Shown here one piece after another: positions 7,591 through 11,079 of a stretch of 64,000 nt of DNA (position 1 is its first letter; every line of letters begins with the position of its first letter). This DNA comes from Owenweeksia hongkongensis DSM 17368 (GTDB taxonomy: Bacteria > Bacteroidota > Bacteroidia > Flavobacteriales > Schleiferiaceae). The notes beneath the pieces were generated by a model that was given only the letters and a program-made list of their open reading frames with translations, searched no databases and was not told the DNA's origin. The translations under genes and the position numbers were made by a program. The DNA lies in contig NC_016599.1 in the NCBI RefSeq assembly GCF_000236705.1, positions 3,658,001 through 3,722,000 of the forward strand, read 5' to 3'.

Positions 7591-7881
7591 TCACTTCTCA
7601 ATAGCTACATGTGAAGATGAAGCCAACTGAAAAGTTTCTGGCTTTGAAGCGTCCATTTCCAACCCCCATCTTTTTAGCATTGGAGCTTCCAATTCCTTCT
7701 GGCGATAATCATCAGGCGTCATTATTGGAATACTATAAATAATAGGGTAATAGCGCTTGCAATCCGGACAAGTCATCATTCCCTCTAGCACTTCACCAGT
7801 TTCATCTTCCTTGTAAATCTCAATGTGCAGCTCGCTTTTGTCCATCGGGCAGCACAGTTTGTTTAACATTAATTTTTGCAT
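7591..7881 (-). CDS. Trm112-like zinc-binding protein
   Basis: A 96-residue protein resembling the Trm112p family: KLCCPMDKSEL near the start, then MTCPDCKRYYPI and a SIPIMTP strand. Cysteines 10, 11, 38 and 41 could bind one zinc ion, but the usual CPxC motif reads CCPMD, so the ligand pattern is shifted. In eukaryotes and archaea Trm112 is an obligate partner that stabilises several class I methyltransferases. Bacterial family members often sit beside unrelated enzymes. Here it is the last gene of an operon whose first gene is a class I methyltransferase, so partnership is plausible but inferred. Four bases separate it from the ThiE-like gene. Confidence 0.8.
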   Translation of the reverse strand: MQKLMLNKLCCPMDKSELHIEIYKEDETGEVLEGMMTCPDCKRYYPIIYSIPIMTPDDYRQKELEAPMLKRWGLEMDASKPETFQLASSSHVAIEK

Positions 7882-7885
7882 AATT

Positions 7886-8530
7886 CTATTTCTTTATTTC
7901 CGCCAAAGCGGTTTTATATTCTTTTACTTTTTTCGCGGGATTATCGGCACTCATTATTCCTGAGATGATAGCCACCCCCTGAAAGTCTAAAAGTCCCAAG
8001 CTTTGTAAATTTTCGGGATTTATACCTCCTGATAAAAACAGGGGAAGTGTAGTGATTTGTCGAGCCAGCAACACCGTGCTTGGTTTTACTATTTCGCAGC
8101 TTATCGCTGAAGAAGAAGGAAACATGGCACAAAATGATAGATAGTCGATTTCATTTTCGTTAGCCCATCGTATTCGTTCTAGATCGTTGCCTGCCGTAAA
8201 ACCTATTATTTTTTCTTTGGGAATAGTATTTCTTACTTCAGTCCAGTTTTCAGGAATTATATCAAAATGAACTCCATCAAGATTAGTTTCTTTCAGTAAT
8301 TGCCATTCCTCATTTATAAGAACGGGAACATTTTTAGCGGCAGCTGTTGCTGTAATTTTATCAATCAAATACAGCTTGTCTTCATGCTTAGCTTCCTTCG
8401 CCCAATGATTCCATATTTGTAAAATATCAATCCCTCCGTCAATTGCGCTTTCTAGCTTGTGCAAAAGTTTACCTTCTTCCATCGAAGGATCTATTACCAG
8501 ATATATTCCTTCAAGCTTTCTCATTTCCAA
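7886..8530 (-). CDS. ThiE/TenI-like TIM-barrel protein
   Basis: A 214-residue protein of the thiamine phosphate synthase/TenI superfamily. The barrel pattern is clear: GGIDILQIW, VPVLINEEW, LDGVHFDIIPEN, KIIGFTAGN, IDYLSFCAMFPSSSA, LPLFLSGGI, GVAIISGIM. True ThiE enzymes couple HMP-pyrophosphate to thiazole phosphate and carry QxRxK, INDR, HLGQ and a TTK-type loop. Here these read QIWNH, INEE, HFDI and SSSA, so the canonical pyrophosphate- and substrate-binding residues are largely gone. It may therefore be TenI-like or do something else. It lies in a TPP-riboswitch operon, overlaps the upstream gene by 10 bases, and is followed by the Trm112-like gene. Confidence 0.8.
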   Translation of the reverse strand: MEMRKLEGIYLVIDPSMEEGKLLHKLESAIDGGIDILQIWNHWAKEAKHEDKLYLIDKITATAAAKNVPVLINEEWQLLKETNLDGVHFDIIPENWTEVRNTIPKEKIIGFTAGNDLERIRWANENEIDYLSFCAMFPSSSAISCEIVKPSTVLLARQITTLPLFLSGGINPENLQSLGLLDFQGVAIISGIMSADNPAKKVKEYKTALAEIKK

Positions 8531-9585
8531 CCTGCATTAAAGGCTTTGAAAAATGCTTCCCAATAAGGGTCCGTTCCATTAAAGGAAAATGTTTTTTCCT
8601 CTCCGTTTTCTATCAGCTGTTGGCCTTTATCCCTTTCGGTAAAATGTCCCACCACAGTAGCTTCAATGTTTTCAGCTTTCAGGGTAGAAATCAAACGTTC
8701 TTCATTTCCTGGTTTTACCGACATAATCATAGATCCTGCTCCAATAGAAAACCTTGGATCAATTTCAAAAAGGTCTGCCACTTCCTGCACTTCTTGATGA
8801 ATAGGAAGAGAATCGTTATTTACACTAAAACCACAATCTGAAGCTTGAGCCATTTCGCTAATGGCGCCCAACACACCGCCTTCGGTTACATCATGCATAG
8901 CATGTATTTCCTTATTGGGGATTAGGGTTTTGGCAGCAATCATGGCTTCTTTTAGCACCGAAATACTCCAAAAGTTATTTGCTGCCTTTTGCTGAATTTC
9001 TGCCCCTAACTTTTCCTTCACCGTTTCAGGGAAGGCCATGGCCAAAATAGCCGTGGACGAAAGTGCGGCACTCTTGCTTACTATAATCGCATCACCCGAT
9101 TGAGCATTATTGCTGCTTAGCAAGCTTTCTTTTGGAGCAGTTAAAAACATAGTTCCACCACCCGAAATCGTAGAATTTTGACCTTCTACTTGGCCGGTGT
9201 GCCCGCCAGTGATGGCTATGCCCAATTGCTCACATTGCTGGTGAATGTGCTGCCAATATTCCGCGAAGTCTTTCCGTGAAAGAGAAGTAGGTAGATTGAG
9301 TACAACCTGAGCATACTTTGGTGCATAGCCCGTGGTAGCCATATCATTTGCCGGAAGGTGAACCGAAAGCCAGGCCGAAGCCTTCATTCCCAAAGAAGGA
9401 ATGAGCGACAAAGGATCGCTGCACACGGCCATCGCCAATCCGTTTTTTAAATCAATGATAGAAGTATCCACCCCAAACTTTGGCCCACACAAAACTTCTT
9501 TGCGCAGCGCACCCGAAAAGGGGAGAAGCTCTTCTTTGAAAACGGCTGAATTTACCTTTCCGCTATTGTTTTCAAAGGCGCTCAT
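8521..9585 (-). CDS. AIR-synthase-related (PurM/HypE/ThiL superfamily) protein
   Basis: A 354-residue protein with the two-domain architecture of the PurM superfamily of ATP-dependent enzymes, which includes PurM, PurL, HypE, SelD and ThiL. Visible motifs are an acidic SDPLSLIPSLG near the N-terminus, HLPANDMATTGYAPKY, ITGGHTGQVEG, and HDVTEGGVLGAISEMA, the last closest to the HypE signature. No hydrogenase genes are near, so HypE function is unlikely. Because the operon has a TPP riboswitch, a ThiL-like phosphorylation step in thiamine metabolism is an attractive but unproven guess. It overlaps the methyltransferase gene by 4 bases (ATGA) and the ThiE-like gene by 10. Confidence 0.8.
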   Translation of the reverse strand: MSAFENNSGKVNSAVFKEELLPFSGALRKEVLCGPKFGVDTSIIDLKNGLAMAVCSDPLSLIPSLGMKASAWLSVHLPANDMATTGYAPKYAQVVLNLPTSLSRKDFAEYWQHIHQQCEQLGIAITGGHTGQVEGQNSTISGGGTMFLTAPKESLLSSNNAQSGDAIIVSKSAALSSTAILAMAFPETVKEKLGAEIQQKAANNFWSISVLKEAMIAAKTLIPNKEIHAMHDVTEGGVLGAISEMAQASDCGFSVNNDSLPIHQEVQEVADLFEIDPRFSIGAGSMIMSVKPGNEERLISTLKAENIEATVVGHFTERDKGQQLIENGEEKTFSFNGTDPYWEAFFKAFNAGWK

Positions 9586-10310
9586 TCTACATCATTTAGC
9601 TGTACATGAAAACCAAAAAAGTCGCCATAGGGCTGATGCCATTGCTGCACAGGAAACCATTTGGGCAAACCGGTAGCATTCCAGGTGATGGTATAATCAC
9701 GGTCAGGAAGCGCCTCGGCAATTAGTGCTTTTAGAGTTTTTGGGGTGTAAAAGTTTGCGGTAACGTAGTAATTATTTCTACCCACCGATTGCTGTACGCG
9801 CCTGCGAATAAGCTTTGGCGTATTGCGATTCATCATGCCAAAAATGATCCCGTATTTCCCTACTCGTACCGCTTCACGTATTACTTTCACAGGATCTTTG
9901 TAGTACTCAAAAGTGGTGACGAAAGCCAGTGCATCAAAGCTATGATCTTTGAAAGGCATGTGATGGGAATCGGCCAGCACAAGATCGCCATCAAAAAGAT
10001 GAACGCCCTGGCCAAGCATAAATGGTGAGATATCTCCACCGGTGGCATTAATACCTATTTCGTGCCACCAGCGGGTAAAGCGCGTGGTGCCGCATCCAAA
10101 TTCCAAAAGGTTTTTTACGCGAGTATCTTTCTTTATAAGACCTTCAAGGGTTTTCTTTTGCCAAATTTCTTGGCGCTTGTATGGCCCTTCATAATACATT
10201 TCATAGTGGTCGGTATCATCACGATTGAAGAACCATTCCTTACGGCCCTGCCAGTTGCGAAGCTCTCCGGTGGCGAGGTCAAACTTTTGCTTTTTTTCAA
10301 TATTGCTCAT
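9582..10310 (-). CDS. Class I SAM-dependent methyltransferase
   Basis: A 242-residue methyltransferase and the first gene of the TPP-riboswitch operon. SAM-binding motif I is LLEFGCGTTRFTRWW (about residues 68-82). Motif II follows as GGDISPFML, then ADSHHMPFKDHSFDALAFVTTFEYYKDP, typical of the methyltransferase domain 11/25 group. The substrate is unknown. The start is the ATG at 10310, 82 bases after the riboswitch P1 stem. The downstream Trm112-like protein could be its partner. No standard thiamine pathway uses a class I methyltransferase at this position, which makes the gene interesting. Confidence 0.85.
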   Translation of the reverse strand: MSNIEKKQKFDLATGELRNWQGRKEWFFNRDDTDHYEMYYEGPYKRQEIWQKKTLEGLIKKDTRVKNLLEFGCGTTRFTRWWHEIGINATGGDISPFMLGQGVHLFDGDLVLADSHHMPFKDHSFDALAFVTTFEYYKDPVKVIREAVRVGKYGIIFGMMNRNTPKLIRRRVQQSVGRNNYYVTANFYTPKTLKALIAEALPDRDYTITWNATGLPKWFPVQQWHQPYGDFFGFHVQLNDVE

Positions 10311-10369
10311 CTATCAACTTTGTATGTTGACCTGATGAATGCCCAAATCATGGAAGGAAAAATTGGATA

Positions 10370-10391
10370 CAAAAAGCCAGAAAGCCTTTTG
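10370..10391 (-). promoter_or_regulatory. Candidate expression-platform hairpin of the TPP riboswitch
   Basis: On the minus strand a 9-bp hairpin (7 Watson-Crick and 2 G-U pairs, loop TTCT) begins one base after the riboswitch P1 stem and ends in a run of five Ts. It could be an intrinsic-terminator-like platform. No antiterminator strand was identified with confidence. Confidence 0.5.
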
Positions 10392-10392
10392 C

Positions 10393-10484
10393 TACAATCC
10401 CTACGCTGGCATTATCCAGATCAGGTTGCGGGTATTTTCTCAGTCTTCGCTCCTTGTAATAATAAGGATAGACACCCCGTTGTA
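10393..10484 (-). promoter_or_regulatory. TPP (thiamine pyrophosphate) riboswitch
   Basis: Read on the minus strand, the region contains the conserved TPP aptamer blocks in order: GGGGTG at the 5' side (about 10473-10478), CTGAGA (10438-10443), ATACCC, AACCTGATCTGGATAATG, then CCAGCGTAGGGA. P1 closes through TACAA (10480-10484) with TTGTA (10393-10397). It lies in the leader of the methyltransferase/AIR-synthase-like/ThiE-like/Trm112-like operon. TPP binding by this class normally represses expression, so the operon should be expressed when thiamine is scarce. Confidence 0.95.
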
Positions 10485-10567
10485 AAATATTAATGCGGCA
10501 AAGGTAGGGGAATGGCAGTGAATTAGGTACTTAAAACTAATTTCTACTTATTTGGTTAGTTAAAGTG

Positions 10568-10614: not shown

Positions 10615-11079
10615 ATGATAGCAGAGCTTGTACATACTTTTCTTCTTAGCATATCCCCTTTTGGTGAGGCCAGGGTAGGGATACCTTATGGAATTGTAAG
10701 TGGGCTCAACCCTTTTTTAGTATTTGTGGTAGGGCTTGGAGCCAACCTATTGGTGTATCCTATTTTTAAGTTTTTGCTAGATAATTTTGACGTAAAACTT
10801 TGGAAGTACCGCCCTTATAAAAAGCAAAGTGTGCGGATGGCTCGTAGAGCAAAATCTGGTGTTGGGAAGAGTATTAAGAAATATGGTTTTTGGGGACTAA
10901 TGGTTTTTGTGATGATCCCTTTACCCATTACCGGAGCTTACATGGGCACCATAGCTTCTCACATTTTTAAGATCAAAAGGAGAAAAGCATTTTTGGCTAT
11001 CAGCCTTGGTGTTACTATTTCTTGCACATTGATGGCAGCTGGTACCTACCTTAGTAAAATGGGCATTGAGCTCATTTGA
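10615..11079 (+). CDS. Small multi-drug export family membrane protein
   Basis: A 154-residue integral membrane protein resembling the small multi-drug export family (COG2426). Hydrophobic segments lie near residues 1-22, 28-55, 96-112 and 122-145. The early motif SPFGEARVGIPYG and the later MIPLPITGAYMGTIAS are the family hallmarks. A basic loop (about 58-88) lies between them. The transport substrate of the family is not well established despite its name. It has its own promoter and is followed 14 bases later by the 2H phosphoesterase gene, probably on the same transcript. Confidence 0.8.
   Translation: MIAELVHTFLLSISPFGEARVGIPYGIVSGLNPFLVFVVGLGANLLVYPIFKFLLDNFDVKLWKYRPYKKQSVRMARRAKSGVGKSIKKYGFWGLMVFVMIPLPITGAYMGTIASHIFKIKRRKAFLAISLGVTISCTLMAAGTYLSKMGIELI

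Follow-up and report, generated by a model that had tools for sequence, protein, structure and literature searches.

Bacteroidota carry canonical thi operons (thiS, thiC, thiD, thiE, thiG, thiH, thiF and tenI) that are controlled by thiamine pyrophosphate (TPP), and gut Bacteroidetes have TPP-controlled OMthi-pnuT-tnr3 operons, which serve thiamine import and encode a thiamine pyrophosphokinase (TPK; tnr3) (PMC5613172). Genome surveys class organisms by ThiC, ThiE, ThiG and ThiL, a genome with thiL and without all other three being 'thiL-others' (PMC11346370). Here we describe a four-gene operon in a 64,000-nucleotide stretch of Owenweeksia hongkongensis DSM 17368 (contig NC_016599.1, positions 3,658,001 to 3,722,000; hereafter the window), which lies on the minus strand below a TPP riboswitch aptamer and encodes, tightly packed, a class I methyltransferase (MT), an AIRS-fold protein, a TenI-like protein with the fold of thiamine phosphate synthase (TPS, or ThiE) and a Trm112-like zinc protein (Table 1). 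It resembles the canonical operon in its TPP aptamer and in one TMP-TENI family member but shares no further gene with it: ThiS, ThiC, ThiD, ThiG, ThiH and ThiF are all missing and, as a preliminary description of this DNA had stated for thiC, thiG, thiS, thiM and thiD, so is thiM. The individual folds and TPP-controlled thiamine operons are already known; the four-gene set under TPP control is undescribed in the open-access literature, where we found no earlier account of it and nothing relevant on non-canonical thiamine routes. This operon probably makes or recovers vitamin B1 by an undescribed route.

The preliminary description had placed a TPP aptamer in the minus-strand leader, and an Rfam scan bore this out: RF00059 was the sole Rfam match across the window, aligned over the full model (1-105; E 2.3e-10) and scored above the gathering threshold. 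A covariance model (R1) built from 42 leaders of the operon family located the aptamer at 77 of 83 operon loci, or 76 of 82 distinct ones, so that homologous operons do not mostly lack the riboswitch, an outcome that would have spoken against the preliminary description. In 75 cases the aptamer lies directly 5' of MT and in one (Ekhidna) 5' of a receptor gene that heads the operon. Since R1 was trained on its own family's leaders, the Rfam scores serve as the independent test. Compensatory changes occur at 6 of the 15 consensus pairs in the 42 leaders. At the aptamer-less loci (L017, L018, L020, L023, L024 and L030) Rfam gave no TPP match, and the family model none except a chance-level match of 14.6 bits far upstream in L018. 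Of 57 relatives, 36 have the motif TAnnTTTG 10-23 nt 5' of their aptamer (background 2.1%), and the copy in the window, judged by the known Bacteroidota consensus, would act as the promoter. A terminator scan of the expression platform on the minus strand revealed no clear intrinsic terminator. Control of the four genes by a TPP aptamer is real and conserved; the response to TPP is itself a prediction from sequence, in which TPP would repress the operon.

To assess conservation, MT was searched against one genome per species, giving 226 relatives; from these we took 80 loci, all from the two related phyla Bacteroidota and Balneolota by record titles. Relatives from whole genomes were added to these loci for the conservation counts. 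The order MT-AIRS-TenI-Trm112 on a single strand was kept in 80 of 80 loci showing all four genes, which rules out Trm112 and MT as chance neighbours; 79 of these are distinct, since L006 and L013 represent one locus, and four more loci are cut off by contig ends. In the window, MT overlaps AIRS and AIRS overlaps the TenI-like gene as ATGA, confirming the overlapping genes noted earlier, while 4 nt separate the TenI-like and Trm112-like genes. The Pfam domains of all four proteins score above cut-off, and the gene set given in the preliminary description stands; among the best-fitting NCBIfam models (hypE, thiL, selD, thiE and Trm112_arch) every match fell below cut-off. Between the four proteins, pairwise distances are correlated (r 0.60-0.82, against at most 0.14 under permutation), and the four therefore travel together, with median identities within the family of 74% for MT, the most conserved, 52% for AIRS, 50% for Trm112 and 42% for the TenI-like protein. 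The operon is rare and patchy: of 296 genomes sampled from the phylum, 11 have it. Its carriers include Algoriphagus, Pontibacter and Runella zeae. A search for a fifth conserved gene beside the operon loci found no widely recurring neighbour, the intergenic gaps of L044, L045, L055 and L065 contained no shared open reading frame, and tblastn with MT detected no plasmid-borne copies.

Table 1. Features of the TPP-controlled operon (positions in the window)
Feature	Position	Strand	Evidence
Bacteroidota-type -7 promoter motif TAnnTTTG (TACCTTTG)	10499..10506	-	direct sequence; immediately 5' of aptamer
TPP riboswitch aptamer (RF00059)	10381..10489	-	Rfam 64.5 bits, above gathering score of 54.3; family model R1 78.2 bits
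Expression platform: hairpin GCAAAAGGCUUUCUGGCUUUUUGU and second hairpin close to start codon	10311..10380	-	folding z -1.81
Class I S-adenosylmethionine (SAM) methyltransferase (MT)	9582..10310	-	Pfam Methyltransf_11 6.7e-16; profile matches 6f5z_A, 1vlm, BUD23
AIRS/PurM-superfamily protein, HypE/ThiL/SelD-like, presumably ATP-dependent	8521..9585	-	Pfam AIRS and AIRS_C
TenI-like protein, TPS fold	7886..8524	-	Pfam TMP-TENI 3.5e-29; pyrophosphate site replaced; invariant C132, C143
Trm112-like zinc protein	7591..7881	-	Pfam Trm112p 1.6e-9; Trm112_arch 56.2 bits, cut-off 77; profile match 6f5z_C

The predicted structure of the TenI-like protein (predicted local distance difference test score, pLDDT, 96.8) has the TIM-barrel fold of TPS (2tps, 3o15); the best match was B. 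subtilis TPS 3o15 (Z 25.8, root-mean-square deviation 2.4 over 210 residues, 21% identity), with TenI a weaker one (Z 21.6). By sequence, too, the protein is not nearer TenI than ThiE (TenI 1yad 52.9 bits vs TPS 99.8), yet it scored 103.5 bits against the ThiE equivalog TIGR00693, whose cut-off is 145.1, and the best ThiE score of any operon protein across 37 genomes was 118.2. In a quick tree with long branches, the operon proteins formed one group apart from both ThiE and TenI, on the ThiE side (support 96). An alternative upstream start, TTG at 8530, is less likely. Residues were counted in an alignment of 80 sequences using B. subtilis ThiE numbering; its anchor was 3o16, which carries the TPS mutation K159A and differs from 1g67 at that lysine. 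The functional roles of TPS residues (pyrophosphate side, ligand side) are those generally ascribed to them in that enzyme. On the ligand side, Q57 (pyrimidine) is invariant and the GG and Ser (S209) of the thiazole-phosphate site are retained. The pyrophosphate-binding set of ThiE, in contrast, is gone: R59 is W in 77 of 80 sequences (W/Y/F overall), K61 is H or N in 77 (H/N/G/R overall), D112 is P in 74, and K159 is never K but mostly V or A (V/A/S/T/N), so that most members carry at this position A, as 3o16 does, or V. B. subtilis S130 is T in all 80, and new invariant residues (window numbering) include S130, F131, C132 and C143. The preliminary description had termed the protein degenerate, but the altered motifs are themselves conserved across the 80 relatives, and the proteins form a group of their own; therefore the TenI-like protein is, as judged from these alignments, a separate clade and a repurposed enzyme rather than a decayed one. 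For the same reason the operon as a whole has virtually no chance of being a relic of an ordinary thi operon, as the loss of ThiE catalytic residues might suggest: open frames, an invariant order in 80 loci over two phyla and conserved new motifs rule this out.

The AIRS protein resembles HypE, ThiL and SelD in fold and in the conserved Asp residues of a presumed nucleotide site (D40, D57, D81 and D232). Its predicted structure (pLDDT 92.2) is nearest to HypE (3vys, Z 34.6), followed by ThiL and SelD (Z 28-29; ThiL 3c9u, Z 29.1). It differs from them in its scores, 90.6 bits against HypE TIGR02124 (cut-off 251.6) and 82.4 bits against ThiL TIGR01379 (cut-off 184.15), in GGHTG at the position of the ThiL GGDT and in its own C-terminal motif DPYWEAF. 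A true ThiL is kept besides; it lies elsewhere in the window's genome (325.9 bits), passed the ThiL cut-off in each of 56 genomes and is present in every operon genome searched, which rules out the AIRS protein as a stand-in for it. The remaining two proteins are encoded together in all 80 complete loci. Because the MT and Trm112 profiles match two chains (A and C) of one entry, 6f5z, which we take to be an archaeal MT-Trm112 complex, the two likely form one holoenzyme, with the Trm112-like protein as predicted partner and activator. Relative to the archaeal and eukaryotic holoenzymes (6f5z; BUD23-TRM112), the operon MT is only weakly similar (20.2 bits to 6f5z_A), has its own N- and C-terminal motifs and is encoded beside thiamine-type proteins. 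As a separate observation, the Trm112-like proteins of two metagenome-assembled genomes (MAGs) of Flavobacteriales (L039:4191-4466 and L043:12410-12682) have few or none of their zinc-binding cysteines left, with the remaining sequence kept.

The thiamine gene content of the genomes bears on what the operon does. In family searches and a few stretches, the window's genome (a single contig of 4.0 Mb) yielded no ThiC, ThiD, ThiM, TPK or canonical ThiE, and only partial TIM-barrel matches to ThiG. Likewise, 36 of the 37 operon genomes searched were without ThiC, ThiG, full-length ThiD and canonical ThiE, short partial ThiG and ThiD matches (other TIM-barrel and sugar-kinase-like proteins) being left uncounted; the exception, Mangrovivirga halotolerans (L069), has ThiC, ThiD, ThiE and ThiG along with the operon. 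ThiM was found in none of the 37 and TPK was not found in most. In the phylum sample, ThiC occurred in 98 of 296 genomes vs 0 of 11 operon genomes (Fisher p 0.011), an anti-correlation that is suggestive only, as related genomes are not independent. Among congeners the two states swap: G330 has the operon while G041 and G054 have a ThiC cluster, and the window's genome (G000) has the operon while G002 has a TPP-controlled thiS-thiC-tenI-thiD-thiE-thiG-thiH-thiF cluster (gene names read off sequences and family searches).

The window's genome has three TPP aptamers. Besides that of the operon leader, a PnuC/PnuT-type transporter and a TonB receptor are each preceded by one, and these two (48.8 and 47 bits) lie below the Rfam gathering score. 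With a receptor and PnuT-type transporter behind TPP aptamers, it resembles the OMthi-pnuT-tnr3 systems, but these use TPK, a family not found in the window's genome. In Ekhidna lutea (L012) the order is aptamer, TonB receptor, MT, AIRS, TenI-like and Trm112, and the receptor is 53% identical to the TPP-controlled TonB receptor of the window's genome, which suggests that a starting compound is imported. In a Balneolales MAG (L045), a true ThiL is encoded 23 nt 3' of Trm112 (290.7 bits against a cut-off of 184), which suggests that the product of the operon is thiamine monophosphate (TMP). At L145:5272-8977, a TPP aptamer and a TonB receptor are immediately preceded by genes for a PnuC-type transporter and a NadR-like kinase; since the genome has ThiL and TPK was not found, this kinase is, speculatively, a candidate thiamine kinase, or it may instead serve NAD salvage.

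Our preferred reading, which we hold tentatively and at a little under even confidence, is that the operon provides ThiL with TMP, made from a thiamine-related compound that is imported, and that the leaving group in this chemistry is not pyrophosphate. Low TPP would turn the operon on, and TPP would repress the module. The starting compound, a thiamine breakdown product or analogue, would be taken up from outside; MT and Trm112, acting as one methyltransferase, would modify a substrate, and the AIRS protein would spend ATP to phosphorylate or activate a substrate. The TenI-like protein would hold an aminopyrimidine and a thiazole phosphate and join or exchange them, possibly with participation of an invariant cysteine, and the TMP product would be handed to ThiL. 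For the chemistry we considered an exchange of bases by way of the invariant Cys as well as leaving groups of the sulfonium type. Of the functions named in the preliminary description, salvage or repair at low TPP fits the missing assembly enzymes, the retained ThiL and the receptor and ThiL linkages, the exact reaction being conjectural; degradation is unlikely because the module lies behind a TPP aptamer and is kept where the standard thiamine-making genes are absent.

Several observations weigh against supply of TMP to ThiL by this operon. It is not obvious where a methyltransferase would fit into the salvage of thiamine or its two halves. The aptamer is missing at 6 of 82 loci, and the receptor and ThiL linkages were each found at one locus only. 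ThiC is absent from 198 of the 296 phylum genomes, so that part of the anti-correlation is base rate. Moreover, Bacteroidota genomes without ThiC and without the operon also get by on ThiL alone; the operon is therefore not the sole way to TMP.

An alternative is that the operon and housekeeping enzymes make TMP from ordinary metabolites without ThiC, ThiG, ThiD and ThiE, its owners being prototrophs misread as auxotrophs. Both the swap between congeners and the absence of ThiC from the 11 operon genomes of the phylum sample would fit this, but a split between auxotrophs and prototrophs would equally give mutual exclusion, the operon has neither a sulfur-inserting nor a radical enzyme and no fifth conserved gene accompanies it, and the window's genome has the TPP-controlled transporter and receptor as well; we consider such biosynthesis unlikely. 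Its boldest form, in which a complete non-canonical TMP route is built around the operon, the rings are coupled via a leaving group set by methylation and many Bacteroidota and Balneolota counted as auxotrophs make the vitamin, has a slim chance. It is also improbable that, instead of making TMP from parts, the operon serves to repair damaged thiamine or TPP or to remove a thiamine analogue. The TenI-like protein does retain both ligand sides and not the pyrophosphate side, and AIRS and MT are typical modifying enzymes, but an operon for damage repair should turn up in genomes with ThiC as well, and of the 37 operon genomes just one has ThiC; nor is shut-off by TPP expected of detoxification. 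Finally, the operon might modify a macromolecule or other target on low TPP, much as MT-Trm112 pairs act in translation-factor or RNA methylation, and the nearest solved pairs presumably act on tRNA, rRNA or release factor; with a TPS-fold protein, nearest to ThiE by fold and sequence, as an invariant member, this seems very unlikely.

The preferred reading, supply of TMP to ThiL, would have consequences for how genomes are interpreted. Missing assembly genes are read as auxotrophy in surveys, where carriers of the operon fall into the 'thiL-others' class; these carriers nevertheless retain a set of enzymes that is strictly conserved, is under TPP control and includes a protein of ThiE fold. 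If the operon yields TMP, vitamin-exchange predictions for marine and soil communities would come out differently, and a reaction of a new kind, in which rings are joined or recovered and a methyltransferase takes part, could be tested directly.

Three further observations concern the surroundings of the operon and other TPP-like elements. The divergent neighbour in the window (10615-11079, plus strand) encodes a membrane protein of the Sm_multidrug_ex family and is not conserved beside the operon. In Christiangramia, the strand opposite the operon bears a second, weaker TPP-like element (L079:12819-12896, minus strand; 42.3 bits) just past the operon's downstream end, with no obvious gene behind it. 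At L144:7996-9731 (C1 of the window's genome, ~562.0-563.7 kb), a TPP aptamer is followed by a PnuC/PnuT-type transporter and an overlapping acyl-CoA dehydrogenase/FMN monooxygenase-like gene (SfnB/HsaA-like), a flavoprotein-like gene that is an unusual partner for a thiamine transporter.

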